From Prevotella sp. (GTDB lineage: Bacteria; Bacteroidota; Bacteroidia; Bacteroidales; Bacteroidaceae), in the NCBI GenBank assembly GCA_017458225.1, contig JAFTFX010000028.1, forward strand, positions 1 to 40,163: DNA of 40,163 nt. The letters are read 5' to 3'. Made by a program: the position numbers and the translations under genes. This document shows positions 8,859 to 37,091 of the stretch, piece by piece (the first letter of the stretch is position 1; every line of letters starts with the position of its first letter). Under the pieces are notes generated by a model. The model did not search any database, had not been told where the DNA came from, and saw nothing but the letters and a program-made list of their open reading frames with translations.

Positions 8859-8916
8859 AATTTATGCGTAAATTCCTTCAATTTATGCATAAATTGCTCG
8901 GATTTATGCATAAATT
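8859..8916. repeat. Three palindromic iterons with 21-bp spacing
   Basis: The 16-base core AATTTATGCATAAATT, a perfect palindrome in copy 2, occurs at 8859-8874 (one change, GCG for GCA), 8880-8895 and 8901-8916 (first base G). The start-to-start distance is exactly 21 bp, two turns of the helix, so all cores face the same side of the DNA. They lie between the convergent araC-type and araA genes, so they are not an obvious promoter operator. Confidence 0.8.
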
Positions 8917-8952
8917 CATGCTAACAGGCTAAGAATATATCAACCATCTTCA

Positions 8953-8995
8953 TAAAAAAGAGAGGCTATGCCTACGAATTGGCACAGCCTCTCTT
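8953..8995 (-). terminator. Terminator of the arabinose operon
   Basis: Arms 8958-8972 and 8981-8995 (AAGAGAGGCTATGCC with GGCACAGCCTCTCTT) pair at 14 of 15 positions around an 8-base loop. On the minus strand a run of six T residues follows (complement of 8954-8959). It lies 20 bp past the araA stop. It may also stop transcription from the convergent AraC-type gene. Confidence 0.8.
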
Positions 8996-9015
8996 TGCTT
9001 AATAATGCGATAGAA

Positions 9016-10554
9016 TTAACGGAGAGCCTTGCTCAGCATGTAGTACATTTCGTTGTTCTGCAGCTGCTGCTTGAACTCGTAGGTCTTGGTCTGCTTGTTA
9101 ATCTTGACATATTCAATGCCAAGCATTTCAGCGAAGTCTTCCCAGTATTCCTCAGTGATGTCGTAAGAGAAGGCACTGTGGTGAGTACCGCCTGCGAGGA
9201 TCCATGCACCGGCACCAATCTCGAACGTGGGCTGGGGCACCCAGAGGGCACTGGCCACGGGCAGGTTGGGCATGGGCTTCGGCTCGATGCACTCCACCTC
9301 CTGCGAGATCAGGCGGAAGCGGTTGCCCAGGTCTACGACGGTAGCCTTGATGCCACGGCCCACCTTAGAGGTGAACACGAGGCGGGCGGTCTGCTGCTTG
9401 CGAATGCCGATGCCGAGGAAGTGGACCTCGAGCTTGGGTTTGTCGACAGCGATGAGCGGGCACACCTCGAGCATGTGGCTCTGCAGGCAGCTGGAGCGGT
9501 CGCCGGCGAAGTTCAGCGTGTAGTCCTCGAGGAACGAGCAGCCCGTGGGCAGGCCCTGCGAGATGACCCACAGCGTGCGATAGAGGCAAGCGGTCTTCCA
9601 GTCGCCCTCGGCACCGAAGCCATAGCCCTCTTCCATGAGGCGCTGCGAAGCGAGACCGGGAATCTGGTCGAAACCACAGAAGTCAGGAGCATCGATGTCT
9701 GCATCGCCCAGATCGTCGAAGTTGGTGGTGAAGGCAGTAGCACCCTCATCCTTCAGCACGCGGCGCAGGGCAATCTCAGCCTTGGCGGCATTATGCACTT
9801 TCTGCCAGTAGACCTCCTCACCGCTCTCGTCGATCTTAATGGTGTAAAGTTTCTTGTACTCCTCGACGAGTTCATCGGCCTCCTTATCGGTCACCTTCTT
9901 GAAGTAGTCCATCAAGCTACTAACGGGATAGTAGTCGACATGATAGCCCAGGCGCTGCTCGAACTCCACACGGTCGCCATCGGTCACGGCCACGTTGTTC
10001 ATATTCATACCGAACATCAGACAGCGCACGTTGTGAGCATCGGCCACACCAACGGCCACACGAGCCCATACGGCAATCTGCTTCTGAGCCTGCTCGTCCT
10101 TCCAGTAGCCGCAAACGACCTTGCGAGGAACACGCATACGGGTGCAGATATGTCCGAACTCGATATCGCCGTGGGCGCTCTGGTTCAGGTTCATGAAGTC
10201 CATGTCCATAGTCTCCCAAGGTATCTCAGCGTTATACTGAGTGTGGAAGTGCAGCAAGGGCTTCTTCAGAGCCTGCAGACCCTTGATCCACATCTTGGCA
10301 GGCGAGAAAGTGTGCATCCAGGTAATCACACCTACGCACTTCTCCTCGTTGTTGGCAGCCAGCATCACCTGCTCTACTTCCTTCGAGCTGTTGGCCGTGC
10401 CCTTATAGACAATCTTCACGGGGATATTGCCGCTGGCGTTCAAGCCTTCGACCATTTCCTTTGAGTGACCGTCAACAGCTACGACAGCGTCACCACCATA
10501 GAGCAACTGTGCACCAGTCACCCACCAAATCTCATAATTCTCAAATGCTTTCAT
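9016..10554 (-). CDS. araA: L-arabinose isomerase
   Basis: Converts L-arabinose to L-ribulose in the cytoplasm (EC 5.3.1.4), the first catabolic step. At 512 residues it is close to the usual 500. Recognisable family segments are 'EIWWVTGAQLLYG' at the N-terminus, 'VGVITWMHTFSPAKMWI', 'PLLHFHTQYN', 'GDWKTACLYR' and 'FLEDYTLNF', plus 'GGTHHSAFSYD' near the C-terminus, which carries a metal-binding His. It is the last gene of the arabinose operon and is followed by a strong terminator. The 71-bp upstream gap contains a 26-bp tandem duplication. Confidence 0.96.
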   Translation of the reverse strand: MKAFENYEIWWVTGAQLLYGGDAVVAVDGHSKEMVEGLNASGNIPVKIVYKGTANSSKEVEQVMLAANNEEKCVGVITWMHTFSPAKMWIKGLQALKKPLLHFHTQYNAEIPWETMDMDFMNLNQSAHGDIEFGHICTRMRVPRKVVCGYWKDEQAQKQIAVWARVAVGVADAHNVRCLMFGMNMNNVAVTDGDRVEFEQRLGYHVDYYPVSSLMDYFKKVTDKEADELVEEYKKLYTIKIDESGEEVYWQKVHNAAKAEIALRRVLKDEGATAFTTNFDDLGDADIDAPDFCGFDQIPGLASQRLMEEGYGFGAEGDWKTACLYRTLWVISQGLPTGCSFLEDYTLNFAGDRSSCLQSHMLEVCPLIAVDKPKLEVHFLGIGIRKQQTARLVFTSKVGRGIKATVVDLGNRFRLISQEVECIEPKPMPNLPVASALWVPQPTFEIGAGAWILAGGTHHSAFSYDITEEYWEDFAEMLGIEYVKINKQTKTYEFKQQLQNNEMYYMLSKALR

Positions 10555-10589
10555 AATAGGTTGTTTTAAAGTTTTATTGATAAAAAAAG

Positions 10590-10641
10590 TTTGATTACTT
10601 TAAATAAGTCTGCTATTTGATTACTTTAAATAAGCCCGTTC
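10590..10641. repeat. 26-bp tandem duplication between araA and the upstream gene
   Basis: The 19-base string TTTGATTACTTTAAATAAG occurs at 10590-10608 and again at 10616-10634, a period of 26 bp. The right-hand copy spans the stop codon of the 141-residue gene (10626-10628). The left copy therefore looks like a duplication of that gene's 3' end, now lying in the araA leader. Confidence 0.75.
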
Positions 10642-11051
10642 CTTACGGCATATTCCCAAGCATCATGGTCAGTCTGCTGCATGGTGCGCACGCCCTCAGG
10701 CAGTTCACTCACAGGATAGGTGGCCTCAATGATGCTGACGGTGACACGGTATTCGCAACCGTCGTCTTCATACCAGCCCGTCGTCCATTCTTTGGTGAAG
10801 TCGAGCGCTATTTCCTGCGTTTTCTCTTTTGCAACCATGAGCCTGACTGTATTTCCGGCACCAAGGAACGTGAAACGACAGTGGCCGGCGTAGGGCGAGT
10901 GGTAAAAGCCGCCATGACGGTTCCATACGATCTCCTGTCCTTCCTTCAGGTCCTTGATGTGAAGACGCCAGTCGTCGTTAGTGGTGCCACTGCCTTTGGT
11001 TCGCTTCTCTTCATGGAGCCGAAGGTCCCATTCTTTCCACTTTTCGTTCAT
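10626..11051 (-). CDS. Conserved-looking hypothetical protein in the arabinose operon
   Basis: A soluble protein of 141 residues with no signal peptide or membrane segment; I do not recognise the family. It is rich in Trp, charged and aromatic residues ('NEKWKEWDLRLHEEKRTKGSGTTNDDWRLHI', written here for composition). The segment 'LKEGQEIVWNRHGGFYHSPYAGHCRFTF' suggests a small beta-rich fold. I chose the ATG at 11051 ('MNEKWKEW') over one 16 codons upstream, which would sit only 3 bp from the araD stop. Its place between araD and araA, in the same orientation, suggests a role in pentose metabolism or its control; the sequence says nothing more definite. Confidence 0.65.
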   Translation of the reverse strand: MNEKWKEWDLRLHEEKRTKGSGTTNDDWRLHIKDLKEGQEIVWNRHGGFYHSPYAGHCRFTFLGAGNTVRLMVAKEKTQEIALDFTKEWTTGWYEDDGCEYRVTVSIIEATYPVSELPEGVRTMQQTDHDAWEYAVRNGLI

Positions 11052-11102
11052 TGTCGTTTCACTTTTTGGAGTTAATGGCTTGTTTATAGGCCGTTGCACT
11101 TG

Positions 11103-11813
11103 TTAGTGCTTTTGTCCTTTCTGTCCGTAGTAGGCGTTGGGGCCGTGCTTACGGTTGTAGTGTTTCTCAACGAGAAGCGGATTCATCATAGTGTTGGGGT
11201 TCACCGAGAACGACACGAAGGCCATCTTGGCACACTGCTCCATCACCTTGGCGTTGTAGACGGCATTGTCGGGACTGGTGCCCCACGAGAACGGGCCGTG
11301 GTTCTTCACCAGCACGGCAGGCGTGTGGTCAGGGTTGATCTTACGGATGTTCAGAATCTCATCGACAATCACGTTACCCGTCTCCAATTCGTACTGTCCT
11401 TCCACCTCTTCCTTCGTCATGTCGCGAGTGCAGGGAATGTCCTTGTAGAAGTAGTCGGCATGGGTCGTACCGATATTGGGAATGTCGCGGCCTGCCTGTG
11501 CGAAAGCAGTAGCATAGGTCGAGTGCGTGTGCACCACGCCCTGAATGTTGGGGAATGCCTTGTATAATACAAGGTGCGTGGGCGTGTCGCTCGAAGGGTT
11601 CAGTTCACCTTCGACAACCTTGCCAGTAGCAAGGTCTACCACCACCATATCCTCAGCCTTCATGTCATCGTAGCTGACGCCCGACGGCTTGATGACCACG
11701 AGGCCCTTCTCGCGGTCGATGCCCGAGACGTTGCCCCACGTGAAGATGACCAGGCCTTGCTTTACCAAGTCAAGGTTGGCCTTGAATACTTTCTGTTTGA
11801 GTTCTTCTAACAT
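11103..11813 (-). CDS. araD: L-ribulose-5-phosphate 4-epimerase
   Basis: Converts L-ribulose 5-phosphate to D-xylulose 5-phosphate (EC 5.1.3.4), feeding the pentose phosphate pathway. It is a 236-residue member of the class II aldolase/adducin family. Visible marks are 'WGNVSGID' and '[10 protein letters not shown]' near the N-terminus, the zinc ligands in '[14 protein letters not shown]' (two His), '[14 protein letters not shown]', and the third zinc His in 'KNHGPFSWG'. It is 9 bp downstream of the AraR gene and so cotranscribed with it. The kinase that makes its substrate is not encoded in this window. Confidence 0.95.
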
Positions 11814-11822
11814 AGTATTTGC

Positions 11823-12497
11823 TTAAAGTTTAAAGTTAGGATCTTCTTTATACGCTTTGTTGTTGAACCGATAGAGGAAGGCGCCTCGCTTCGAACTGAG
11901 CTTGTCGATGAGCTCGGTCTTCTCGATGAAGTCCATGTCCTTGATGCGCTTGCGGAAGTTGCGCTTGTCGATCTCCTCGCCTCCGACGGCCTCGTAGAGG
12001 CGCTGCAACTGCGTGAGCGTGAACAGCGGCGGCAGCAGACGGAAGCCGATGGGTTCGGTGCGCATCTTCTGCTTCATCAGTTTCCAGGCTTTCATCACCA
12101 TTTCGTTATGGTCGGAATAAAGCTGGGGAATCTCGTTGATGTTCACCCACTCCACCTCGTGCTCACGGCGCAGTTTCTCGTCGTAGTCCTTCACGTTGAT
12201 CAGCGCGTAGTAGGCTACCGAGATAACGCGCTCGCCGGGGTCGCGATCGACCTTGCCGAAGGCGCCCACCTGCCGCATGAAGATGTTGTGAATGCCTGTC
12301 AGCTCCGACAGCGTACGCTTGGCAGCCTCGTCGATACTCTCGTCGGCAGCGACGAAGCCTCCATAGAGGCTCCATTCGCCACGTCCGGGATCCATCTGGC
12401 GTCGGCCGATGAGCACCTTCAGCTTACTCTCGTCGAAGCCAAAGATGATGCAGTCGACCGACACCCAGACCTTAGAATGTTCGTTATAGAATGTCAT
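11823..12497 (-). CDS. araR: Nudix-type arabinose-responsive repressor AraR
   Basis: A 224-residue protein with an N-terminal Nudix domain and a C-terminal winged helix, the NrtR-like layout of the AraR described in Bacteroides. The Nudix box runs from G47 to I69 but is degenerate. The canonical R-E-U-x-E-E-x-G-U core reads R-T-L-S-E-L-T-G-I, so two of the metal-binding Glu residues (positions 62 and 66) are gone. This fits a sugar sensor that no longer hydrolyses nucleotides. The C-terminal part, about 150-224, carries the DNA-binding domain. It is embedded in the operon it probably controls, 3 bp after the transporter stop, giving autoregulation. Confidence 0.85.
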   Translation of the reverse strand: MTFYNEHSKVWVSVDCIIFGFDESKLKVLIGRRQMDPGRGEWSLYGGFVAADESIDEAAKRTLSELTGIHNIFMRQVGAFGKVDRDPGERVISVAYYALINVKDYDEKLRREHEVEWVNINEIPQLYSDHNEMVMKAWKLMKQKMRTEPIGFRLLPPLFTLTQLQRLYEAVGGEEIDKRNFRKRIKDMDFIEKTELIDKLSSKRGAFLYRFNNKAYKEDPNFKL

Positions 12498-12500
12498 TTT

Positions 12501-14246
12501 TTACCAGAAGTATGCATAGAAGCAAGCACAGAGGCCTACAACGACCAGTGTGCCAACGATATCCCATACACCCCAGCTCTCGCGGATGCTCTTCTTGAAG
12601 TCTGCCGAGAAGGTGATGGCCTCCACCTGTGCCTTCGAAGGAGCGGGTGTGAAGAAGCTCACGCAGACCATGAGGCAAATGATGAACACCAGCAGCCAGC
12701 ACTCAAAGATGAGCCAGTTGGTCTGCCAGAACCATGTGGTGCTCTCCCAGAAGGCACCGTCCATAGCAGCTTTGCCAGAGTCGGTAATCACATTGGTGAG
12801 CAGGCGAAGCATACCGATGAGGAAGCCGCCAATGAGACCCCACTCACCTGCCTTCGGCGTGATCTTCTTAGAGAAGATACCCAGCGTGAACACAGCCACC
12901 ATGGCAGGAGCGATGAGCGACTGTATGTCCTGTAGGTAGCTGTAGAGGTTGCCCATCGACATCATCACCGGCATCCACAGCAGACCCAGGACCACCACCA
13001 CGACGGTAGCGCAACGGCCAACAAACACGTAGTGGGCCTCGCTCTTGCCCTTCTTCATGGGCTTGTAGAAGTCCTCAGTGAACAGCGTAGCGCAGCTATT
13101 GAAGAAAGCTGCCAGCGAAGCCACCAGAGCACAGACGAAACCGATGGTCACGATGCCCTTGATACCAGCAGGCAGGATGTTCTTCACCATCATGGCAAAG
13201 GCACCGTCGGTAGACTCATGGTTGGTAATATCCATCACGATGCCGCTGTCGGGGTTCTGCGACAGAGCGTATGCGATCATGCCGGGAATGAGGAACATGA
13301 AGCAAGGCAGAATCTTGAAGAAACCGGCAGCAATGGTGCCACGACGAGCGCGGGCGATAACCTTGGCATTGTCCTCGCCGGGAACCTGACCGAGCACACG
13401 CTGTACGATGTGCTGGTCGGTGCACCAGTACCAGAAACCGATAATAGAGGCTCCGAGGAACACCACATAGCCGGGGAACTGCGGGTACATCGGGTCGCCC
13501 GGATCGGTATGGAACATGTGAGTGGTGCCGTAGCCGTCGTGAGCGGCATTACAGATGGCCATCATGTTCTCCCAGCCAGCAGTAATACTGCCACCGCCCA
13601 GAGCCGAAAGGCCAAGGAAGAGTACGAGGAACGAGCCTATAATAAGAATAGGTGTCTGGATGGTGGAGAGCGTCATCACGCCCTTCATACCGCCAAAGAC
13701 GGTGAACACGGCCGTGATGGCAATCAGGCCGATGGCACCCACCCAGAAGTTGAGGCCAAGCAGATACTTGAAGAAGATACCACCGGTGAAGGCCGTCACC
13801 GATACCTTCGTCAGCACGTAGGCTACAAGAGTGATGATCGACAGCCACGAACCCGTGCGCTGGGTGTAGCGGAACTTCAGGAAGTCGGGCATGGTGATAA
13901 TCTTGCCCATCTTCGTAATCAGCAGCTGATAGAAAGGCACGAACAGCCAACCGAGAATCAGGATCATCCAGCCCTGCATCTCCCAGTGAGCCATACCTAC
14001 GCCATCCTTAGCGCCCGTACCAGCCAGACCTACCAGATGCTCAGAGCCGATATTGGCGGCGAAAATAGCCATACCGATTACATACCAAGGCTCACCCTTA
14101 CCGAAAAGGTAAGCCGACGAGTCTTCGCCCTGCTGGGCTTTCTTGTCTTTCCAGATGGCATACCACACGGCAGCCACCACTCCACAAAGGCCGATGGCGA
14201 GAATCGCCCAGTCGAGCCAAATGAATTCATGTGAACTCCAGTTCAT
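12501..14246 (-). CDS. Sodium/sugar symporter, probably for L-arabinose
   Basis: An inner-membrane secondary transporter of 581 residues in the solute:sodium symporter (SSS, SglT-like) family. About 14 hydrophobic segments are visible. Family marks include 'FAANIGSEHLVGLAGTGAKDG' in the first helices, 'MPDFLKFRYTQRTGSW', 'FGGMKGVMTLSTIQTPILIIGS' and 'DQHIVQRVLGQ'. It lies between galM and araR in the arabinose operon, which supports Na+-coupled arabinose uptake; the substrate is inferred from context only. The galM stop is 28 bp upstream. Confidence 0.9.
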   Translation of the reverse strand: MNWSSHEFIWLDWAILAIGLCGVVAAVWYAIWKDKKAQQGEDSSAYLFGKGEPWYVIGMAIFAANIGSEHLVGLAGTGAKDGVGMAHWEMQGWMILILGWLFVPFYQLLITKMGKIITMPDFLKFRYTQRTGSWLSIITLVAYVLTKVSVTAFTGGIFFKYLLGLNFWVGAIGLIAITAVFTVFGGMKGVMTLSTIQTPILIIGSFLVLFLGLSALGGGSITAGWENMMAICNAAHDGYGTTHMFHTDPGDPMYPQFPGYVVFLGASIIGFWYWCTDQHIVQRVLGQVPGEDNAKVIARARRGTIAAGFFKILPCFMFLIPGMIAYALSQNPDSGIVMDITNHESTDGAFAMMVKNILPAGIKGIVTIGFVCALVASLAAFFNSCATLFTEDFYKPMKKGKSEAHYVFVGRCATVVVVVLGLLWMPVMMSMGNLYSYLQDIQSLIAPAMVAVFTLGIFSKKITPKAGEWGLIGGFLIGMLRLLTNVITDSGKAAMDGAFWESTTWFWQTNWLIFECWLLVFIICLMVCVSFFTPAPSKAQVEAITFSADFKKSIRESWGVWDIVGTLVVVGLCACFYAYFW

Positions 14247-14274
14247 AGTTTAATTAGTATTTATAGGATTTTGA

Positions 14275-15462
14275 TTATTTGATGCTGAATTTATAAGCTG
14301 CGTGGCTGTAATATGACTTCTCGGGAGTAACCACAGGACTTGCCCATTCGGGATGGTTGGGCGAGTCGGGATATTTCTGGCTCTCCAGACATACACTCAC
14401 GTGCTGAGGATATTTCTTACCGAGTTTGCGAACGATGTTCTCTTCGCCGTTCACGCCCTGGAAGTTACCGCTATACACCTGCACACCAGGCTCGTTGGTG
14501 AACATCTCCATGAAGATGCCTGTACGGGGGCTATAGAGCGAAGCACAAACCTGCGTGTCATCACCATTAGTGTTCAGGCACCAGTTGTGGTCATAGCCGT
14601 GAGCATTCTTTATCTGATAGTATTCTGAGTGAATGCTGTCGCCAACGGCATGCGGTGTACGGAAGTCCATAGGAGTACCCTCAACAGGAAGAATCTTGCC
14701 GGTAGGCATATAGCTGAAATCTGCCTCGGTGAAGTTGTCGGCATTCACATAGAGAACCTGATCGTAAGCAGCATTCTCCAGATCGCCGCTCAGATTGTAG
14801 TAGTTGTGGTTCGTCTGGTTCACAATAGTTGGTTTGTCGGTGGTTGCCTCCCATGTGATATCAAGCACATTGTCGGCCGTAACCTTATAGGTGGTGATGG
14901 CTGTTACATTGCCGGGGAATCCGTTCTCACCGTCAGCTGCATTGATCTGCAACTTAATCAGAGAATCATTCACCTCAATGACATCATAGACCTGATTCAT
15001 CCAACCAGTTGCGCCACCTCCATGCAGGCAGTGAATGCGCGTGTCACCCTCATGAGGGTCGTTCTGGCGCAACTGATAGGTCTCACCGTCAAGTGTGAAC
15101 TTACCATCGCAGATACGGTTGGCATAACGGCCAACGCTTGATCCGTAATCTGTCGGCGAGTTCAGCGTGTCGGCGTACTGTGCAATATTGTCAAAGCCCA
15201 GCACTACATCGGTGGGATTGCCATCCTTGTCGTTAACAACAAGCGACACCACTCGACCACCATAGTTGGTAATGCATACTTCCATGCCGTTGGCATTCTT
15301 CAGCGTGTAGAGTTTCACAGGCTTTTCGTTAATAACTGTGTCGAATTTGGCGGCATCGAGACCCGACTTTGTCAAAGCCGATTCCTGAGCTCCGCCAGCA
15401 CATGCAGAAAGCATCAGTGCAGACGCACCGATACAAAGCAATGAACCTTTAAGTGTTTTCAT
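14275..15462 (-). CDS. galM: Exported aldose 1-epimerase (mutarotase) lipoprotein
   Basis: Interconverts alpha and beta anomers of aldoses (EC 5.1.3.3). The protein has 395 residues, longer than cytosolic GalM because of an N-terminal lipoprotein signal ending in the lipobox 'LSAC' at about residues 18-21. It should therefore sit in the periplasm, anchored to a membrane, and prepare sugar for the symporter. Catalytic features seen are the His in 'NHNYYNLSGD' and the Glu in 'TNEPGVQVYSGNF'. It is the first gene of the arabinose operon, downstream of the palindromic candidate operator. Its preferred sugar is presumably L-arabinose, from context. Confidence 0.93.
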   Translation of the reverse strand: MKTLKGSLLCIGASALMLSACAGGAQESALTKSGLDAAKFDTVINEKPVKLYTLKNANGMEVCITNYGGRVVSLVVNDKDGNPTDVVLGFDNIAQYADTLNSPTDYGSSVGRYANRICDGKFTLDGETYQLRQNDPHEGDTRIHCLHGGGATGWMNQVYDVIEVNDSLIKLQINAADGENGFPGNVTAITTYKVTADNVLDITWEATTDKPTIVNQTNHNYYNLSGDLENAAYDQVLYVNADNFTEADFSYMPTGKILPVEGTPMDFRTPHAVGDSIHSEYYQIKNAHGYDHNWCLNTNGDDTQVCASLYSPRTGIFMEMFTNEPGVQVYSGNFQGVNGEENIVRKLGKKYPQHVSVCLESQKYPDSPNHPEWASPVVTPEKSYYSHAAYKFSIK

Positions 15463-15510
15463 TTTTTTAGTTTTAAATAAACGTTTTAGTTATTGTTGCG
15501 ATAATTTGGG

Positions 15511-15522
15511 TGTAAATTTACA
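15511..15522. promoter_or_regulatory. Candidate AraR operator upstream of galM
   Basis: TGTAAATTTACA is a perfect 12-bp palindrome located 49 bp before the galM start. It contains TAAATTTA, close to the -7 consensus TAnnTTTG on the minus strand, so a repressor bound here would block the promoter. Assignment to AraR is inference from position; I have not compared it with a published motif. Confidence 0.5.
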
Positions 15523-15683
15523 ACTAAATTTTGAATTGGCCATAAAAAAAAACATTATTTTTTGTGTTATGACCGCTAAATTTTGATATTTAACCTTTAT
15601 AAACACTCTGCGACAACTGTGGCACAGAATTTGCATATATTATGGCAAATGTAAATAAATCTATTAGAAAAAGAACAAAAGAC

Positions 15684-17747: not shown

Positions 17748-17804
17748 CCTTTATTTGAATATGCTTCTGAAGAACCCAGTCAATATGATTTGACTGAAAA
17801 ACAG

Positions 17805-17870
17805 AAATCTTCAAAAATCTTTCACATATATTGTTTAACAATATCATTTGTGTCGGATTTTTGAAGATTT
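17805..17870. terminator. Bidirectional terminator between htpG and tetR
   Basis: Two perfect 15-base arms (17805-17819 and 17856-17870, AAATCTTCAAAAATC and its complement) enclose 36 bases. Inside lie further nested palindromes, CACA/TGTG and ATATTG/CAATAT. A TTTTC/CTTTG tract follows on the plus strand. The location between converging genes suggests it stops both. Confidence 0.65.
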
Positions 17871-25652: not shown

Positions 25653-25703
25653 CAAACACTCATAGAGTTTGCATCAAACGCTCATAGAGTTTGCATCAAA
25701 CGC
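25653..25703. repeat. 22-bp tandem repeat between converging genes
   Basis: Two full copies and a partial third of CAAACrCTCATAGAGTTTGCAT start at 25653, 25675 and 25697. Within each unit CAAAC and GTTTG, and CTC and GAG, can pair to form a small hairpin. The array separates the porin gene from the converging yihY and may act as a roadblock, but there is no T tract. Confidence 0.8.
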
Positions 25704-25735
25704 TGTGAGTATTTCAATGCAATACTTTGTGAATG

Positions 25736-27081: not shown

Positions 27082-27504
27082 AAAAAGCACTGTCCCTATA
27101 AGCCGGGTTCTGTTCTGACAAGATGTCAGCGCCTGTCATTTATCTACTATGCACGTCGCCATGCATCTCTAGCGTTCTACCCTCCATCGCACGTTCGTTT
27201 GGGCGGGCAACCCTCCATTCCTTGCGGAAAACGATGGTATACATGAACTTGCAGCCTCCAGATGGAACAGCGCGACGATCACCCGCCGCCTGGTGGTCTC
27301 TTACACCGCCTTCTCACCCTTACCCCACCCTCTTGGTTCTCTTTGCAGAGCCTGAGAGAGCTTGACGGGGCGGTCGTTCTCTTCTTCCATATCCAGCTGT
27401 CGCCAACTGCTTCTACTTTCAGAAGTGGAGCACCCTGTGCTGCCCGGACTTTCCTCCCGTCTCTCCTTTCAGAAAGGCCAGCGACAAGCCAGGACAGTGC
27501 TTTC
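27082..27504 (-). ncRNA. rnpB: RNase P RNA (bacterial class A)
   Basis: The catalytic RNA that trims tRNA 5' ends. On the minus strand the 5' part has the hallmark GAGGAAAGTCCGGGC (27442-27456 complement) and the 3' part has ACAGAACCCGGCTTATAGG (27096-27114 complement), which together form the P4 core. Between them lie GGTAAGGGTGAGAAGGCGG and AAGAGACCACC, also conserved. The ends pair as helix P1: AGCACTGTCC near the start with GGGACAGTGCT near the end. A T-rich run follows. The promoter element TAATTTTG (27518-27511) sits just upstream. Length is about 420 nt. Ends are accurate to a few bases. Confidence 0.95.
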
Positions 27505-27510
27505 AGCGCG

Positions 27511-29204: not shown

Positions 29205-29223
29205 ATCGCAATAGAAACTGAAT

Positions 29224-29258
29224 CTGGCCAGAATCCATGCGATTTTGGCCAGTTTTTT
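29224..29258 (+). terminator. Rho-independent terminator of the protease gene
   Basis: Arms CTGGCCAGAATC (29224-29235) and GATTTTGGCCAG (29241-29252) pair along 12 positions with one G-U, around a 5-base loop. Six T residues follow. It lies 20 bp past the stop and just before the rpoD promoter. Confidence 0.9.
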
Positions 29259-29277
29259 ATTGATTTTCAAATATTTC

Positions 29278-29309
29278 TTTGGCTGTTTCACAGAAATCAA
29301 CTAACTTTG
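29278..29309 (+). promoter_or_regulatory. Consensus promoter of the rpoD operon
   Basis: TTTG at 29278-29281, a 20-bp spacer, and TAACTTTG at 29302-29309 match the Bacteroidetes primary sigma consensus. Transcription would begin near 29316, leaving a leader of about 27 bases before the ATG at 29343. Confidence 0.75.
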
Positions 29310-29342
29310 CACGAAGGGATATTAAATACACGTTCACAAGCA

Positions 29343-30206
29343 ATGAGACAACTGAAAATCTCGAAGTCGATTACCAATCGCGAAAGCGACTCGCTCGAAA
29401 AGTATCTGCAGGAGATTGGTAAGGAAGAGATGATTAGCACGGAGGAAGAGGTGGAGCTGGCCCAACGCATCCGCAAGGGCGACCGTAAAGCCTTGGAGCG
29501 GCTGACGAAAGCGAACCTGCGCTTTGTTGTCTCTGTAGCCAAGCAGTATCAAAACCAAGGGTTAAGTCTGCCGGATCTGATCAACGAGGGCAATGTAGGG
29601 CTTATCAAAGCAGCCGAGAAGTTCGATGAGACACGCGGATTCAAGTTCATTTCCTATGCGGTATGGTGGATTCGACAGAGCATTCTGCAAGCTCTGGCCG
29701 AGCAAAGCCGTATCGTGCGCTTCCCTCAGAACCAGGTAGGTGCAGCAGGAAAAATCAACAAGATACTGGGCCGCTTTGAACAAGAACACGAACGCCGTCC
29801 GTCAGTCGATGAGATTTCTGAACAGATTGACCTGCCGCGTGAGAAGATTGACGAAGCGCTGAACATATCAGGCCATCATGTATCGGTGGATGCACCGTTT
29901 GCAGAAGGCGATGACAGCTCGTTGCTCGATGTTCTTGTCAACGACAATTCCCCAATGGCCGACTCTGAATTAGTAGTAGAGTCGATGAAGAGCGAGATTG
30001 CTTCTGCACTCAATATATTGCGCGAGCGCGAAAGAAACGTCATTGAAGCATACTTTGGCATCAACCAGCCAGAACTGTCGCTCGAAGAGATTGGCGTGAA
30101 GTACGGATTGTCTCGCGAAAGAGTGCGCCAGATCAAGGAAAAAGCTATTCGCGAACTGCGCGAGAACTCAAAGAACAAAATATTGAAGACCTATTTAGGA
30201 CAATGA
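29343..30206 (+). CDS. rpoD: RNA polymerase primary sigma factor
   Basis: The housekeeping sigma-70 of 287 residues, the short Bacteroidetes form without region 1.1. Region 1.2 is '[26 protein letters not shown]'. Region 2 holds '[25 protein letters not shown]' and '[19 protein letters not shown]'. Region 3 is around '[15 protein letters not shown]'. Region 4 ends in '[28 protein letters not shown]'. The ATG at 29343 is preferred over an in-frame codon at 29307 because the -7 element overlaps the latter. The stop overlaps the next gene's start (ATGA), so rpoD heads a coupled five-gene unit. Confidence 0.97.
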
Positions 30207-30712
30207 GAACAAATACAATCAAACTATTTCTAATTCTCTGCCTCACTGCCTTTTCAGTTGTGCATGTCGAGGCTAAACGCACAGTTGTGCCTAAGATGTA
30301 TATGTTTGGCTTTGCCGCATCGTTCAACGACACCATCGTCCATTTCACAAACATCATGGAAGTTGACTCCGTATGGATTGAAACGAAGAACAACTTCCTT
30401 TTAGGCAGAAACTACTATTCCCACCAGTTCCGCAGCTATCTGGAAAAGAACATGCAGATGCCCGACCGCACCTGCATCACCATGTATGCCAAGACACGCG
30501 CCAAAGCTGAGAAGAAATATTTGAAGCTTCGTCGCAAGTACACACAGTCGAAAGACGGAAAGGCCCATTTCGACGTGCGCTATCTTGACGATGGTGCATT
30601 CAACTTCAAAACGGTCAACATCCGTGAATACGAAGAAAGCGAAGAAGAGATGGAGGCAAGAAATGCTGCTTTAGCAAAGAAAAACAAGAAAAAGGGCAAG
30701 AAGCGTGAATAG
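30203..30712 (+). CDS. Exported hypothetical protein downstream of rpoD
   Basis: A 169-residue protein with a signal peptide ('[18 protein letters not shown]'); I do not recognise the family. The mature part contains '[28 protein letters not shown]' and a middle rich in Tyr, Lys and Arg. The C-terminus is very basic and low in complexity ('[15 protein letters not shown]'). It overlaps rpoD by 4 bp and the next gene by 8 bp, so translation of the block is coupled. The product looks periplasmic or surface-attached. Any link to its neighbours is only by position. Confidence 0.75.
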
Positions 30713-31583
30713 TCATTATTTCTGTATTGCCGGCCATGTGGTTGAACTGAGGTTTACCGAGTCATCGGTCAACAGCATGGGCTTGTTGCCTTCCTTTGCT
30801 CCGTTCGCTTGTGAGCAACCTTCATGCGCCCCTCTCTTCACCCTTACTGTCGATGACGATTTGCGCCCTGTTCCTGGGCGAAAGCTCATTCGCAAGTTCG
30901 ATACAGGCAATGGCGACACCATTGTCCATCGACTGCCAGACGGAGGCTATCAGTATATCATCAAGGACATCTATAATCGTGAGTGCGCCCTGCTGGTGTG
31001 CAACAATCAGTTCAAGGAGTGTACATGTGCACTGAATGGCGACTGGACGATGCGCTCCTTTGGGCTTAACGATGCCATCATGCTGGTCTTTGCCTTTGCT
31101 GGCGCTTATCACGACACGTTGCTCATCCATGCTTCCTGCGTCCTCTATCAGGGACATGCCTATCCGTTCACAGCTAAGAGCGGAACAGGTAAAAGTACCC
31201 ACACATCGCTATGGCTCAAGCATATTGAAGGTGCCGAACTGCTCAACGACGATAATCCTGTGATACGCATCGTCGACGGCCAGCCTGTTGTCTATGGCTC
31301 ACCCTGGAGTGGCAAAACGCCTTGTTATCGCAACCGATGGGCACCCTTGGGAGCGCTGACGCAGATTGAGCGCGCATCCACTAATTATGCCGAACGCCTT
31401 CCTGTGGTACAGGCTTTTGCCGTACTGCTACCAGCTTGTTCTTCCATGAAATGGGACGAAGAACTCTACGACCGACTCTGTAACATCATCACCGTCATCA
31501 TTCAGACGACACCAGTCTACACCATGCACTGCCTGCCAGACCAAGAGGCAGCTGAGGTGTGCCATCAAACGATTGCCTTATGA
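30705..31583 (+). CDS. HPr kinase-like P-loop protein
   Basis: A 292-residue protein whose C-terminal half resembles the HprK P-loop kinase fold. Walker A is 'AKSGTGKST' at about 157-165, followed by 'LLNDDNPVI' (179-187, Walker B-like). Upstream lies 'LLIHASCVLYQGHAYPFTA'. The N-terminal half has no clear match. Genuine HPr kinases are phosphorylases with an HPr partner; this type, paired with PqqD-like genes, is a family seen in some RiPP clusters, where it phosphorylates the peptide. Here the substrate is unknown. It overlaps the next gene by 4 bp. Confidence 0.72.
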   Translation: MNSHYFCIAGHVVELRFTESSVNSMGLLPSFAPFACEQPSCAPLFTLTVDDDLRPVPGRKLIRKFDTGNGDTIVHRLPDGGYQYIIKDIYNRECALLVCNNQFKECTCALNGDWTMRSFGLNDAIMLVFAFAGAYHDTLLIHASCVLYQGHAYPFTAKSGTGKSTHTSLWLKHIEGAELLNDDNPVIRIVDGQPVVYGSPWSGKTPCYRNRWAPLGALTQIERASTNYAERLPVVQAFAVLLPACSSMKWDEELYDRLCNIITVIIQTTPVYTMHCLPDQEAAEVCHQTIAL

Positions 31584-32056
31584 TTACGAAACAAATGCCC
31601 AATGCCGAGTTCCTACCTTTCGTGGTAGAGCAGCTTCATGCTGTTGCAGGAAAGACGGTCACGCTGCCCCTGCGAGGCAGAAGCATGCGCCCCTTTCTTG
31701 AAGACGGACGCGACAAAGCCCTGCTCATTGCAGATTCTGACTACAAGGTGGGCGATGCAGTATTGGCAGAGATCAGTAAGGGGCATTTCGTCCTGCATCG
31801 CATCATCCGCATTGAAGGCGACCGTGTCACACTACGTGGTGACGGGAACCTGAACATCGAACAGTGCCACCTTGCTGATGTGAAGGCAAAAGCCATCGGG
31901 TTCTATCGGAAAGGACGAAACACCCTCGATTCTACTTCTGGAGCGAAATGGAGAACCTATTCATGGATCTGGACACGCCTCTACCCCATCCGCCGTTATC
32001 TGCTGTTCATGCTCCACCCACACATACCTCAAAGATTTAAACCAACAAAACAATAG
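31580..32056 (+). CDS. S24/S26-family signal-peptidase-like protein
   Basis: A 158-residue protein with the serine-peptidase fold shared by LexA and signal peptidases. The Ser lies in 'LRGRSMRPFLEDG', and the region 'KGHFVLHRIIRI..DRVTLRGDGN' carries a His in the position used by Ser-His type (SipW-like) enzymes rather than the Ser-Lys type. The C-terminus has a weakly hydrophobic stretch ('RRYLLFMLHPH'). I chose the ATG at 31580, which overlaps the previous stop as ATGA. An earlier ATG at 31559 would overlap by 25 bp. The substrate could be a leader peptide, on the evidence of the neighbouring PqqD gene. Confidence 0.75.
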   Translation: MITKQMPNAEFLPFVVEQLHAVAGKTVTLPLRGRSMRPFLEDGRDKALLIADSDYKVGDAVLAEISKGHFVLHRIIRIEGDRVTLRGDGNLNIEQCHLADVKAKAIGFYRKGRNTLDSTSGAKWRTYSWIWTRLYPIRRYLLFMLHPHIPQRFKPTKQ

Positions 32057-32066
32057 ATATAAAGCA

Positions 32067-32336
32067 ATGAAGACCAAAAAAGGATTTCGCCTGCGCAGCA
32101 TTTGCGGCGAGAATATTATTGTAGCCGAAGGTATTGAAAACATCGACTTCAGCCGTATCATCAGCATGAATGAATCGTCGGCTTACCTATGGAGCAAAGC
32201 CGAAGGAAACTCATTCAGCGAAGAAGACTTAGTCAATTGGCTGACAGACGAATACGAAGTGGAGCGCGCTACTGCAGAAGCCGACGTAAAAACGCTGGTT
32301 GGCAAATGGCTGGAGGCAGGAATCATTGAAGCCTGA
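32067..32336 (+). CDS. PqqD-like peptide-binding protein
   Basis: An 89-residue protein with the PqqD/RiPP recognition-element pattern: 'GFRLRSICGENIIVAEG', 'IISMNESSAYLWSKAEGNSFSEEDLVNWL' and 'VERATAEADVKTLVGKWLEAGII'. PqqD proteins bind the leader of a ribosomal peptide and present it to a modifying enzyme. It follows the peptidase-like gene by 10 bp and ends the unit. No candidate precursor gene lies beside it, and the 24-bp gap before the converging ispE is too short for one. Confidence 0.75.
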   Translation: MKTKKGFRLRSICGENIIVAEGIENIDFSRIISMNESSAYLWSKAEGNSFSEEDLVNWLTDEYEVERATAEADVKTLVGKWLEAGIIEA

Positions 32337-32360
32337 CCATAGGATTTCAAGCATCGGAAA

Positions 32361-33194
32361 TCACGGAAGAAAGACTACTGTCTTGAACATTCCTTCAAAC
32401 ACTCCTTCAAGTTCCGGCTTTTGACGGAACAAACCAAATACGGCACTTCCGCTTCCACTCATGGCAGCGTAAGTAGCTCCCATGTGATAAAGCATTTCCT
32501 TCACATCGCCAATCTCTGGATGCCGGGCAAACACACTGGCTTCAAAATCGTTAACCAATGCGTCGCACCATTCTTCAACAGGGCGCAACACAATGTCACG
32601 ACAGTTCACGAGGGGCCTCTGAGGCTTGACTCTTGCAAAGGCTTCTTTCGTCGGAACAGGGATGTTAGGACGTACAACCGCCAGATACCATCCCTGCAAA
32701 TTCAGGCTGACGAGCTCCAGTCTTTCGCCAATTCCCTCAGCATAGCAGGGCTGATTCATAATGAAGAAAGGACAGTCGGCTCCCAGACGGGCAGCATAGT
32801 CTATCAATTGCTGCCGGCCAATTCCCAAGTCAAACATCTTGTTAAGCAGCAGCAGCATGGCCGATGCATCGCTCGAGCCGCCGCCCATACCGGCTTGCGT
32901 AGGTATGCTCTTATAGAGGTGGGCATGCACACGCGGCATTGCAGGGAAATCTTCCTTCAGCAATTGGTAAGCCCGTACCACAAGGTTGCGCTGTTCGTCG
33001 CCTTCCACTGCAAAATTGCTTACTTTTATATCGCAGTCAAAGGGTGACGGGAACTTTTCGTCCATCACATTGACTTCAAGTGCATCGTGAATGGCAACAG
33101 GATAGAACACCGTTTCGAGGTTATGATAGCCGTCGGGACGACGCTCCACTATATTCAATCCCAGATTGATTTTCGCATTAGGAAATGTTATCAT
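32361..33194 (-). CDS. ispE: 4-diphosphocytidyl-2-C-methyl-D-erythritol kinase
   Basis: A GHMP kinase of 277 residues in the MEP isoprenoid pathway (EC 2.7.1.148). 'PNAKINLGLNIVERRPDGYHNLETVF' is the N-terminal substrate-binding signature, 'QAGMGGGSSDASA' the phosphate loop, and 'YAAMSGSGSAVFGLF' the third GHMP motif. Length is normal. It lies 46 bp downstream of feoAB in the same direction, so cotranscription is possible. It converges on the PqqD-like gene with only 24 bp between and no visible hairpin. Confidence 0.95.
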   Translation of the reverse strand: MITFPNAKINLGLNIVERRPDGYHNLETVFYPVAIHDALEVNVMDEKFPSPFDCDIKVSNFAVEGDEQRNLVVRAYQLLKEDFPAMPRVHAHLYKSIPTQAGMGGGSSDASAMLLLLNKMFDLGIGRQQLIDYAARLGADCPFFIMNQPCYAEGIGERLELVSLNLQGWYLAVVRPNIPVPTKEAFARVKPQRPLVNCRDIVLRPVEEWCDALVNDFEASVFARHPEIGDVKEMLYHMGATYAAMSGSGSAVFGLFRQKPELEGVFEGMFKTVVFLP

Positions 33195-33240
33195 GTCGTG
33201 AAATAATTCTGTTCCTTATAGGGATTTCCCACTTCTTTGT

Positions 33241-35640
33241 TTATAAAAGACTACCCACTTGATAGACAATGGCCGACACCAGCCACGCCAATGCCGTTGT
33301 GTAGCCAGCAGCAAACAGTGCCCACCGCCATGAAGAGGTCTCGTTCTTGATAGCAACGATTGTTGCGATGCAAGGGAAATAGAGCAGCACAAACAGCAGA
33401 TAGCAATAGGCCGTCAGTGGTGTGATGCCGTCTGCCTCCATCTGTGAGCGCAAGGTGACATACTTCGATGTGTCCTCGCTGAAAGAATCATCGTCGGCAA
33501 AGGAGTCGTCACCGCTGTACAGCACACCGATAGTGGAAGCCACGATCTCCTTGGCTCCTACGCCAGCAATAAGACTGACATCCAGTTTCCAGTTGAAGCC
33601 TTGTGGCGTGAACAGTGGCTCGACAGCCTTTCCTAAGCGTCCAATATACGACTGTTCCTGTTGTTGCTGCGGAGTCAGTTCTCCATGATGAGGGAAATAC
33701 TCAAGCGACCACACCACGATAGATGCTACCAAGATGATGCCACCCATCTTTTTCAGATACTCCTTTCCTTTCTCCCACGTATGCCTGCCGATTGCCTTTG
33801 CCGTTGGCCAACGGTACGGCGGCAGTTCCATCACGAAGGGTGTGTCGGGTTCTTTCACCACAAAAGCCGCCAATACCTTGCTTGCTATGACCGACATTGC
33901 AATGCCCAACACATAGAGCGAGAGCATGGCCCACGTCTGATAGTGAGCAACGAAGAAGGTGCCTACAATCATAATATAGATAGGAAGACGGGCCGAGCAC
34001 GACATGAAGGGCAATATCATCATCGTAATCAGTCGCGACTTGCGGCTTTCTATTGTACGAGTAGCCATCACGGCAGGAACATTGCAGCCAAAGCCCATGA
34101 TGAGGGGAATGAACGATTTGCCGTGAAGTCCCATCTTGTGCATCAGCTTATCCATGATGAAGGCGGCACGCGACATGTAGCCAGAGTCCTCCATCAGCGA
34201 GATGAAGAAATAGAGGATGAGTATCTGCGGCAGGAAGACGATGACCGAACCCACGCCGGCAATAGCACCATCGACAATCAGTGAGCGAAGCGGACCTTCA
34301 GGAAGGGCGGCCTCAACCTTGTTCGACAGCCAGCTGACCGCCATTTCTATCCAATCCATCGGGTATTGTCCGAGCGAGAAAGTTGTCTCGAACATGACAT
34401 AGAGGATCATGAAGAAGATAGGAATGCCCAGATACTTGTTGGAGAGAATGCTGTCGATGATGCGTGTGGTGCGATAAGTATCCTTCTCTGTACCCGTGCT
34501 ATATTCAGCTTCAGTGAGTGCACCATTGATGAAGCCATACTTGGCATCCATGATGGCCGTTTCGGCATCGCTACCTGTTTCCTCCTGCACACGATTGGCC
34601 GCATGGTTTCGTGCAGCCAGCAGTTGTCGGCGGTCTTCAGGGCGATGTTCGTCGGCCAGATGCTGACCAATATAGCGTGCTGCCTCAGGATCGTTCTCCA
34701 GGAGTTTGATGGCCAGATAGCGCGTTGAGTAACGCTGCCTGATATGTTCGTCGGCCTTCAGGTATTTCTGGATGTGGCTGATGCCGTCCTCAATCTCATG
34801 ACCATAGTTGATGTGCAAGTGGCGCGCCTGTCGGCTGGCTCCCTCATACACCTGAATGACAGCACGGAAAAGATTTTTCACGCCGGTGCCGTGCTTGAAC
34901 GAGGTTGGCACCATTGGCATACCGAAGAGTGTGGAGAGCGTATCGAGATTGACTGTATCGCCACGATGCTCGAACTCATCATACATATTCAGAGCTCCCA
35001 CCATTCGCAAGTCCATATCGACAAGCTGGGTGGTGAGATACAGATTGCGTTCCAAGTTCGTTGAGTCAATAACGTTGATGACCACATCAGGCATCTGTTC
35101 CGTCAGATATTTCCTTACATAGAGTTCTTCCGGCGAATAGCATGAGAGCGAATAAGTGCCTGGCAGGTCGATGAGGTTGAACTCATAGCCAAACATGGTG
35201 GCGTGTGCCTCCGAGGCATCGACCGTTACGCCCGAATAGTTACCCACACGTCCGTGAGCACCCGATGCATAGTTGAAGAGCGATGTCTTTCCGCAGTTGG
35301 GATTGCCAATGAGTGCCACGTTGATGGTGCGTCGTTTCTCCAGGGCCACATGCTGGAAGTAATCGTCTTCGTGCAGCATCTTCGTATAGGGAGTTTCCAT
35401 CTTCTCGGTAGTGGGTTCGGTGCTCACCACCTCAATCATTTCCGCTTCTTGATGACGAAGGGACACCTCATAGCCCATCACTCTGTATTTCACGGGGTCT
35501 TGAAGGGGCGCATTCAACAGCACTTCTACCAGTTTACCCTTGACGAAGCCCATTTCAATGATGCGTTTACGGAAACTGCCGTGTCCTTGCACCTTAACGA
35601 TATAGCCCTTTTCGCCTGTCTTCAGTTCTGAGAGTTTCAT
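33241..35640 (-). CDS. feoB: FeoA-FeoB fusion ferrous iron transporter
   Basis: An inner-membrane Fe2+ importer of 799 residues. Residues 1-75 are a FeoA (SH3-like) domain fused to the N-terminus, the form common in Bacteroidetes. The G domain follows: G1 'GNPNCGKT' (112-119), G2 around 'VGNYSGVTVD', G3 'DLPG' (158-161) and G4 'NMYD' (218-221). Two Gate domains and the membrane core come after, including 'FIPLIMGFGCNVPAVMATRTIESRK'. The gene is 18 bp after nhaD. No FeoC is visible, as usual in this phylum. Confidence 0.95.
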   Translation of the reverse strand: MKLSELKTGEKGYIVKVQGHGSFRKRIIEMGFVKGKLVEVLLNAPLQDPVKYRVMGYEVSLRHQEAEMIEVVSTEPTTEKMETPYTKMLHEDDYFQHVALEKRRTINVALIGNPNCGKTSLFNYASGAHGRVGNYSGVTVDASEAHATMFGYEFNLIDLPGTYSLSCYSPEELYVRKYLTEQMPDVVINVIDSTNLERNLYLTTQLVDMDLRMVGALNMYDEFEHRGDTVNLDTLSTLFGMPMVPTSFKHGTGVKNLFRAVIQVYEGASRQARHLHINYGHEIEDGISHIQKYLKADEHIRQRYSTRYLAIKLLENDPEAARYIGQHLADEHRPEDRRQLLAARNHAANRVQEETGSDAETAIMDAKYGFINGALTEAEYSTGTEKDTYRTTRIIDSILSNKYLGIPIFFMILYVMFETTFSLGQYPMDWIEMAVSWLSNKVEAALPEGPLRSLIVDGAIAGVGSVIVFLPQILILYFFISLMEDSGYMSRAAFIMDKLMHKMGLHGKSFIPLIMGFGCNVPAVMATRTIESRKSRLITMMILPFMSCSARLPIYIMIVGTFFVAHYQTWAMLSLYVLGIAMSVIASKVLAAFVVKEPDTPFVMELPPYRWPTAKAIGRHTWEKGKEYLKKMGGIILVASIVVWSLEYFPHHGELTPQQQQEQSYIGRLGKAVEPLFTPQGFNWKLDVSLIAGVGAKEIVASTIGVLYSGDDSFADDDSFSEDTSKYVTLRSQMEADGITPLTAYCYLLFVLLYFPCIATIVAIKNETSSWRWALFAAGYTTALAWLVSAIVYQVGSLL

Positions 35641-35658
35641 CGGTTGTCTGTTGTTTTG

Positions 35659-37032
35659 TTATGCATAGAAATAGTGTTCGAAGTAGAGAGCCATCAGGCC
35701 TACGACGAAGCCGGCGAACACTTTAGGCGTGATATTGCGGAAATACCACCCCAGACGCATGTGCTCTGCCTGCATGAGAGCCAATCCGCTGGTGGAACCG
35801 ACAGAGAGCAGACAACCGCCAATGGCTGTTGAATAGGCGATGATCATCCAGTAAATGCCGTTTTGGGCAAAGTCGCCCTCGCCCACATTGAAGAACGACA
35901 CGTTCGTAATGGCTACAGTGAAAGTATCGACAAACGAGGAAAGAACACCGGAAAGAAATCCCATCACCCAGATGTTTCCCTGCAAGGTGTTGAGTATCCA
36001 TTTGGCAATATCGCCCAACACGCCCGTCTCTGTCATGACACCCATGCCGAGCATGATGCCCATCACGAACAGCATTTGCTGGATGGCTCCATACTGCAAA
36101 GCACGCGGTATGCGCCGCTGAGCCATCTGGTCGGCCTGCATCAGCTTGCGATTGAAGGCCTCGTTGACTACCCACAACAGCGACAGCACGCAGAGTGCGC
36201 CAAGGAAGGGCGACAACTTGGTGATATTGTGGAAAGTGGGGATGAACCACAGGCCACCAATGCCCACCATGAACATCAGCAGTCGCTGCCAGCGGTTCAG
36301 TCGGGTGTCGTTGCCGCGATAGGGAGCCAAGCCCCATTCTATGTCAAGACGACTGGGCAACTGAAGGTTTATCAGAATGGTGGGAATGATCCATGCGAGC
36401 ACGGCAGGCAGGGCCAGATAGGCAGAAAAGCGCGAAGCCGTGATGGCTCCGTCGCCCCAGAGTATCACTCCGATAGGGTCGCCGATCACCGTGAAGCATC
36501 CTCCTGCATTGGCCGCCAGCACGATGGCCGACCCAATGAGTATGCGCTGGTTGTGATTGTTCACAATGCCACGCATGATGATCAGCATCAATGTCGTGGT
36601 GGTCAGGTTGTCCAGATTGGCCGAGATTAGGAATGTGGCAATGGTGATGGTCCACAAGAATCGCTTGGTGTTGCGCGTGCGAATCCATTCTGAGATAAAG
36701 TCGAAGCAGCCGTTGTTGTTCAGTATCTCGACAATGCTCATCGTTGCCACCAGGAACATGACAACTGCCGCTGCCTTGCCTACATATTTCAGGAAGATGC
36801 TGTCATAGATGAAGAACTTGACGGCCTCGCTCGACGGTTCGCTGCCCTGCAGGAAGTCGGCATATTCGTCGGCATGCAGCTGCAGCACGAAGTCGGAGCC
36901 CCAGCATACATACACCACCCATCCCACAGCGCCTATGAACATAGCGATGGCCGATCGGTTCACTCCTGTCAGATGGCCTGTAGCAATCATCAGATAGCCC
37001 AAGACCAATAAGGAAACTATTATGAGCATCAT
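35659..37032 (-). CDS. nhaD: NhaD-type Na+/H+ antiporter
   Basis: An inner-membrane antiporter of 457 residues in the NhaD/ion transporter superfamily, with about 11-12 membrane segments. Family marks are 'FLISANLDNLTTTTLMLIIMR', 'SAIVLAANAGGCFTVIGDPIGVILW' and 'GVLSSFVDTFTVAITNVSFF'. It exports Na+ in exchange for protons, which supports Na+-cycle physiology (the arabinose symporter in this window is Na+-coupled by family). A 23-bp direct repeat sits just before its start. Specificity for Na+ over Li+ is not readable here. Confidence 0.88.
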   Translation of the reverse strand: MMLIIVSLLVLGYLMIATGHLTGVNRSAIAMFIGAVGWVVYVCWGSDFVLQLHADEYADFLQGSEPSSEAVKFFIYDSIFLKYVGKAAAVVMFLVATMSIVEILNNNGCFDFISEWIRTRNTKRFLWTITIATFLISANLDNLTTTTLMLIIMRGIVNNHNQRILIGSAIVLAANAGGCFTVIGDPIGVILWGDGAITASRFSAYLALPAVLAWIIPTILINLQLPSRLDIEWGLAPYRGNDTRLNRWQRLLMFMVGIGGLWFIPTFHNITKLSPFLGALCVLSLLWVVNEAFNRKLMQADQMAQRRIPRALQYGAIQQMLFVMGIMLGMGVMTETGVLGDIAKWILNTLQGNIWVMGFLSGVLSSFVDTFTVAITNVSFFNVGEGDFAQNGIYWMIIAYSTAIGGCLLSVGSTSGLALMQAEHMRLGWYFRNITPKVFAGFVVGLMALYFEHYFYA

Positions 37033-37045
37033 TTCTTTTCTCTTT

Positions 37046-37091
37046 TATTTAGGTATGGTGTCTTCTCGTATTTAGGTATATCGTCTTCTTT
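37046..37091. repeat. 23-bp direct repeat between rnz and nhaD
   Basis: TATTTAGGTATGGTGTCTTCTCG (37046-37068) is followed directly by a second copy (37069-37091) with changes at positions 12-14 and 22-23. The period is 23 bp. It occupies almost the whole 60-bp gap. Confidence 0.8.

Follow-up and report, generated by a model that had tools for sequence, protein, structure and literature searches.

The closest known kinds of element to the intergenic arrays considered here are repetitive extragenic palindromic (REP) sequences with bacterial interspersed mosaic elements (BIMEs), and the BrickBuilt repeats of Porphyromonas gingivalis. Passages of the literature describe REP/BIME repeats as short, palindromic, extragenic sequences that are dispersed and clustered (PMC2817692, PMC12306157, PMC3733652), with a GTAG or CGTC tag at one end of the REP (PMC3733652). 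BrickBuilt is presented as a miniature inverted-repeat transposable element (MITE) minisatellite of intergenic 23-nt tandem repeats at 19 loci, with 1 to 22.8 units, whole-unit differences between strains, conserved and non-conserved sites within the unit, and a leader, a tail, and small inverted-repeat ends (PMC4596501). Here, we analyze a 40,163-nt stretch of DNA from Prevotella sp. (GenBank assembly GCA_017458225.1, contig JAFTFX010000028.1; hereafter the window), which holds five tandem arrays with periods of 21–23 bp. The window is the entire contig C12 of a draft genome of 2,236,009 bases in 46 contigs (74.7% complete). Judged by titles and the openings of abstracts, we found no paper on phased intergenic arrays of 21–22 bp in Prevotella, and the word "tandem" is absent from the main text of PMC5771137.

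Our preferred reading, held tentatively and with close to an even chance of being right, is that most of these arrays group the sites of putative dimeric, sequence-specific DNA-binding proteins in helical phase. Sites two helical turns apart (21–22 bp) would place successive dimers on the same face of the DNA and allow cooperative binding; each core family (A, B, C, and F, described below) would be served by its own putative protein; and the role would be structural (nucleoid, silencing, or insulation), not the regulation of particular genes. From the sequences we infer protein binding, the helical-phasing meaning of the pitch, and the structural role alike. We favor this reading because the distance between units is constrained beyond the sequence of the spacers, unit number is often fixed in the source genome, the dyad cores lack an excess of compensated changes, and neighboring units resemble one another no more than strangers do. 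Placement between genes and beside unrelated genes, a bias toward the 3′ end of the upstream gene, and cores that differ between species lend further support. Geometry is kept while sequence changes, so that the constraint on spacing is separable from that on sequence and can be tested directly.

Abundance in the source genome and its relatives

An earlier note on this DNA had regarded the five window arrays as one genome-wide phenomenon. Tandem Repeats Finder (TRF) finds all five near the positions reported there, and 200 pseudo-windows from a third-order Markov model (Markov-3) gave 22 arrays of period 18–26 (score of at least 50) in total, or 0.11 per window vs. the five observed. For the source genome, 760 kb of the 2,236 kb were sampled, in a first set of 440 kb (the window and twenty 20-kb stretches, L009–L028) and a second of 320 kb (16 stretches, L260–L275), with genes called by a purpose-made gene finder, on whose calls the intergenic counts depend. 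The 286 intergenic stretches of at least 40 bp (79.6 kb of the sample) hold 49 arrays of period 21–23 (22 bp in 37, 21 bp in nine, and 23 bp in three), as well as four of period 44 and two of period 66; 20 Markov-3 replicates of the same intergenic lengths gave a mean of 0.05 arrays. These counts support the genome-wide view, and chance is ruled out, as Markov-3 sequence reproduces the arrays neither of the window nor of the genome sample. In the 440-kb set, period 22 accounts for 28 arrays (26 intergenic), period 21 for 11 (six intergenic), period 23 for three, period 44 for two, and period 66 for one, with every other period at six arrays or fewer; the 320-kb set adds 21 intergenic arrays of these periods, bringing both sets together to 59. 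The two tallies differ slightly because, for the comparison with the Markov-3 replicates, each intergenic stretch was taken by itself.

Coding repeats were rejected as an explanation, since most of the arrays counted fall outside called genes and a period of 22 is not a multiple of 3. Arrays inside called genes do exist (27 in the 440-kb set), and 23 of them have a period divisible by 3. An assembly artifact was likewise rejected, because arrays are also present in G016 and G024, both single-contig genomes that are 99% complete. A second class of repeat, with a period of 9, 18, or 27 (ACTAGT-rich and TCGGAGTAA-like), lies partly within called genes (L009 2513, L024 8790, L016 13407, L027 5320, L017 12610, and L026 17401).

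Intergenic arrays of period 21–23 occur in 12 of 14 genomes of the same genus (G059, G050, G016, G024, G045, G010, G219, G003, G026, G028, G044, and G264; 20 to 140 kb read in each), at densities of 14 to 133 per Mb, and no such array occurs in the 60 kb read of each of G463 and G236. In 10 of the 14, no intergenic period is more frequent than 22; the exceptions are G045, G028, G463, and G236. With 59 of them in the 760 kb sampled here (a third of the source genome) and the like in 12 of 14 relatives, these arrays suggest a widespread intergenic feature of the genus. The comparison with relatives, which the earlier note had called for, shows that the periods recur while unit sequences mostly change between species; G264 has family B in common with the source genome, and G219 carries a 21-bp family of similar form (AATTATAGCTATAATT). 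The 14-genome tally excludes the stretches of G041, G414, and G306, and those taken later from G264, which were chosen for family B. The G045 stretches (L186–L192) hold two arrays of period 21–23 in 140 kb, yet 14 intergenic repeats with shorter periods (7, 10, or 14). Among the RpoD loci listed (at least 80), the closest belong to Prevotella draft genomes, the best at 80% identity. More distant genomes are poor in arrays, with 15 in 1.3 Mb of named RpoD loci (80 among the matches listed), four in 400 kb from seven members of the class or phylum, and one in 100 kb of Escherichia coli K-12.

Spacing, unit variation, and symmetry

Units in the source genome fall into families with dyad cores, namely A (core AATTTATGCATAAATT, pitch 21 bp), B (core ACAAACTCGTCGACTTTGT, pitch 22 bp), C (core CTTTTGCTTACAAGCAAAAG, pitch 22 bp), and F (core ACTCCGAACGTCTCGGAGT, pitch 22 bp), and a family D, located by a weight matrix, with a 22-bp unit that lacks inner symmetry and is arranged in two inverted halves. 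With no period assumed, spacings of up to 120 bp between neighboring cores are 21 bp in 15 of 15 cases for A and 22 bp in 12 of 12 for B; for C they are 22 bp in 12 cases and 44 bp in two, and for F 22 bp in 20 cases and 66 bp in one. All 63 family D spacings of up to 130 bp are divisible by 11 (47 at 22, nine at 33, five at 55, and one each at 44 and 77). Intergenic singletons number three vs. 23 clustered cores for A, none vs. 18 for B, three vs. 16 for C, and one vs. 24 for F. In the source sample, three units are present in all eight A and all seven B elements; C has four units in five elements and three in two, and F has five to nine. The four B arrays read in G264 each have 2.9 copies. 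One A element (L012 12133–12190) forms a near-perfect 58-bp palindrome together with both of its spacers, unlike the other A elements listed. When only arrays of significant symmetry are considered (25 of 95), a choice that somewhat favors conserved arms, identity between units is.88–1.0 at 5–9 bp from the dyad axis (the arms) and.69–.88 at the center, and is lowest in the spacer (.42–.56 at 10–11 bp).

Core identity within and between elements is.88 and.89 for A,.99 and.99 for B,.79 and.78 for C, and.82 and.80 for F; the corresponding spacer values are.43 and.38 for A (eight within-element pairs),.67 and.67 for B (seven),.35 and.44 for C (17), and.59 and.65 for F (50). Units of the same array are no more similar than units from other arrays in these four families, in core and spacer alike, and the spacers (.35–.67) are looser than the cores (.79–.99) in sequence, yet fixed in length. 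This lack of closer resemblance within arrays contradicts, for A, B, C, and F, the suggestion of the earlier note that a process copies DNA in steps of about 22 bp; that suggestion may hold for D, for the window array at 37046, and for near-identical arrays such as that at 39784. Local duplication as a general explanation, whether by slippage or by copying in 22-bp steps, with the arrays intergenic since a 22-bp change disrupts reading frames, is quite improbable. It would account for the near-identical arrays (39784; L010 6205), for the 37046 array, which is unique in the source genome, and for the closer similarity of D units within than between elements. It would also suit the size polymorphism seen in one sister pair, G041 and G414, whose shared B array lies in DNA that is about 94% identical and differs by 44 bp, i.e., two whole units. 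The hallmark of slippage, neighbors that are more alike and a spacer copied with its core, appears in D only; neighbors in A, B, C, and F are as unlike as distant units, all 15 sampled A and B elements of the source genome keep three units, and slippage does not account for a single period in unrelated sequences and species.

Of 46 merged source elements that were folded, 39 lie between two called genes, and the rest are not placeable in this way. Observed vs. expected numbers by gap length are 25 vs. 28.5 for same-strand gaps, nine vs. 5.1 for convergent gaps, and five vs. 5.4 for divergent gaps; in same-strand gaps, 19 of the 25 elements are closer to the 3′ end of the upstream gene (medians of 42 and 129 bp). 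By Pfam, the genes that flank A and B elements show no relation to one another; they include an AraC-type regulator with arabinose isomerase, the FtsZ family, a Mur ligase, phenylalanyl-tRNA synthetase beta, MTHFR, glycoside hydrolases, a TonB receptor, and others (28 of 29 listed neighbors of eight A and seven B elements, two without a family; a 71-aa neighbor at L266 was omitted). On this basis a regulon was rejected for the A and B neighbors.

The arrays would have another meaning if they acted as RNA or single-strand hairpins (terminators, mRNA ends, or 22-bp stems), which we consider very improbable. Folding at z < −3 is seen for 25 of 46 source arrays and 27 of 78 arrays of relatives vs. 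20 of 124 controls (16%), and both the 3′-end bias and the long palindrome at L012 would fit hairpins as well. Compensated arm changes are nevertheless not in excess over shuffles (two vs. 1.5 in A, four vs. 7.6 in C, and none vs. 0.2 in F), on which ground selection for hairpins was rejected. In a further family, shared by genomes G003 and G026, paired cells exceed the shuffle mean, but compensation is weak, with 60 of 1000 shuffles attaining the paired-cell value and 290 that for compensated changes. Moreover, the A+T-rich cores of family A would pair weakly, five of the 39 elements lie in divergent gaps, and no Rfam family matches the window arrays at gathering score.

The sister genomes G003 and G026 are 94.8% identical over 6.3 kb and 75–91% in other blocks, and alignments of three of their loci were judged by eye. 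At the first shared array, length and register are the same and the adjoining genes are alike, while the centers of neighboring cores differ jointly; because identity per 100 columns is only 61–80% in the surrounding gap and the spacers have changed as well, this is not a clean core replacement in an unchanged gap. At the second shared array, cores have been replaced and inverted, with some spacers apparently kept, and G003 lacks a third array that G026 carries. Cores of the form AAAACGTATATACGTTTT in one sister correspond to AAAACGGAGGTACGTTTT in neighboring units of the other, with one unit inverted elsewhere. An additional 19.6 kb of alignment between the two genomes contains no 22-bp array. 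Two further 22-bp arrays (G026 C2 48910–48957 and G003 C23 27343–27462) lie at or beside breaks in gene order between the sisters. These alignments bring up a broader scenario, which we judge unlikely: a site system of Prevotella and its kin in which phased dyad clusters would be bound by putative fast-diverging proteins, and cores would be overwritten or flipped in place with pitch and register kept, leaving sequence species-specific and geometry constant. It is rated no higher because the gap and spacers of the G003 and G026 array have diverged as well.

Possible mobility and points against the proposed phased sites

Alternatively, the arrays might be REP/BIME-like selfish repeats, i.e., non-autonomous mobile units spread by a putative transposase, with symmetry serving its recognition; we regard this as rather unlikely as the explanation of the arrays, and a mobile-repeat origin of the spread of families is compatible with protein sites, so that both could be true together. 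The families are dispersed and intergenic, and B is patchy: its pair matches number 30 in the source genome, 115 in G264, three each in G041 and G306, and one in G414, with none in 393 of 398 genomes, which would correspond to about 15 triplets in the source genome and 57 in G264. The compound element at the right end of the window recurs as a block on contig C16, D elements are dyad overall and several have TTGCAAT or ATTGCAA near an end (by eye), B copies have common, partly symmetric edges of about 15 bp, and the source genome encodes a protein like REP-associated tyrosine transposases (RAYTs). On the other hand, elements of the same family are as unlike inside as between loci and have no long common flank, and by eye there is no transposase among the open reading frames (ORFs) next to the isolated B arrays in G041, G306, and G414, the G306 contig stopping less than 100 bp from its array.

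The RAYT-like gene (C19:31123–32400; L005 236–1516) encodes 426 aa with a long C-terminal part and scores 34.7 bits against NCBIfam NF047646 (cut-off 80) and 23.5 against Pfam Y1_Tnp (cut-off 23). The protein matches 225 of 398 genomes and is unmatched in G003, G026, G010, and G024, which are 99% complete and bear 133, 122, 83, and 36 arrays per Mb, respectively, in the stretches read; G010 has two IS200-like Y1 genes, and G003, G024, and G026 have no Y1_Tnp match. Because the RAYT-like protein does not track the arrays, RAYT-driven spread was rejected as their general cause. The earlier note had also advised looking for a conserved protein whose presence tracks the arrays, and this one candidate does not. 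The gene adjoins a 139–140-bp repeat with a strong inverted repeat, which is found at window 40025–40163 and at seven other contig ends (L002–L008); as contigs break there, it probably bounds a longer element present in multiple copies.

Several observations weigh against phased sites for dimeric proteins. Unit number in family B varies in relatives (4.5 in G306, four in G041, and two in G414), and the A locus L221, outside the sample, carries a degenerate fourth unit (L222 has three). A cruder mismatch search for family D gives 50 of 52 spacings at 22 bp and two off pitch (16 and 27 bp), and D units are locally homogenized, with an identity of 0.71 within vs. 0.63 between elements (reached by none of 500 shuffles). 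Few consensus units are significantly palindromic (9 of 38 in the source genome and 7 of 53 in other genomes, vs. 2.9% of 987 random intergenic 22-mers), and the other 70 of the 95 arrays have a nearly flat identity profile, at about.60–.81 over 0–11 bp. Folding at z < −3 in 25 of 46 source arrays also counts here, although dyad arrays would fold in this way anyway. The jointly differing core centers of G003 and G026 fit templated replacement more easily than selection on single sites, and family B is patchy as a mobile element would be (5 of 398 genomes). Finally, many families in one genome would require many proteins, and the only candidate protein examined, the RAYT-like transposase, does not follow the arrays. 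The proposal of the earlier note that the arrays are sites for an architectural protein is compatible with the strict pitch, the conservation of spacer length over sequence, and the lack of excess compensation in A, C, and F, but not with the RAYT-like protein as the candidate.

The window arrays and known systems

None of the five window arrays is assigned a strand. The first (8859..8916; TRF 8855–8917, 21 bp × 3.0) is a family A element of three dyad cores near AATTTATGCATAAATT, with a pitch of 21 bp and spacers of 5 bp; the exact tandem-core pattern of this family is found at six sites in the source genome and is absent from 60 other genomes of the taxonomic family. The second (25653..25718; TRF 25653–25704, 22 bp × 2.4) comprises two near-identical units CAAAC(G/A)CTCATAGAGTTTGCAT and, correcting the 2.3 units of the earlier note, a degenerate third unit that extends on pitch to about 25718. 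Three similar sequences elsewhere (C38, C21, and C29) all have half-sites 22 bp apart, and TRF calls a 22-bp array at one of the three. The two arrays at the right end make up a single compound element, with 4.3 near-identical units CAATACAATACGGATGGCGGTA on the left (39784..39878; TRF 22 bp × 4.3) and a family C array on the right (GCTTACAAGCAAACGACCATTC, 3.6 units 22 bp apart; 39897..39975; TRF 22 bp × 3.6), the latter with related sequence at many further places in the source genome. A second copy of the compound element lies at C16:81450–81644 (80% identity), and the match starts and stops close to the array edges. The remaining array, a 23-bp direct repeat of two units (37046..37089; TRF 23 bp × 1.9), has no relative found elsewhere in the source genome, and it may be an unrelated, ordinary duplication. 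The sequences thus differ between families, as the earlier note had it, but all except the 37046 array have relatives scattered through the source genome. Loci of relatives that match the right end of the window (L229–L235; 67–77% identity for L229–L234), not all of which span the 37046 gap, contain no 22-bp array, and L235 has a period-12 array only; the window's own arrays are therefore not datable. The one Rfam match in the window is Bacterial RNase P RNA class A (27083–27500, minus strand; 186 bits), and the plus-strand ORFs listed across it are probably spurious.

Like REP/BIME repeats, the arrays described here are short intergenic repeats in many copies, clearly palindromic in families A and B, and weakly or not in many arrays. 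They differ in keeping a fixed pitch (21 or 22 bp) across spacers of looser sequence, in comprising several unrelated families within one genome, and in not being tracked by a RAYT-like protein. Without a dedicated search, neither GTAG nor CGTC was seen in typical A and C cores, and CGTC lies inside units of B, D, and F. The ends of the transposons Mu and Tn7 contain clusters of 22-bp sites, for MuA and TnsB, respectively. Family D resembles these in that its 22-bp sites are clustered, about three at a time, in inverted halves; however, the two halves of D face each other at distances of 33 or 55 bp, or 77 bp in a single case, which is too close for a transposon body. With BrickBuilt of P. gingivalis, likewise a member of the Bacteroidales, the arrays have in common intergenic tandem repeats with conserved and looser positions and, in one pair of genomes, a whole-unit difference. 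They depart from BrickBuilt in that A and B elements of the source genome have three units and no common flank beyond about 15 bp (by eye, over 40–45 bp on each side), and in that periods in the source genome are mostly 22 bp (37 of 49), not 23 bp (3 of 49).

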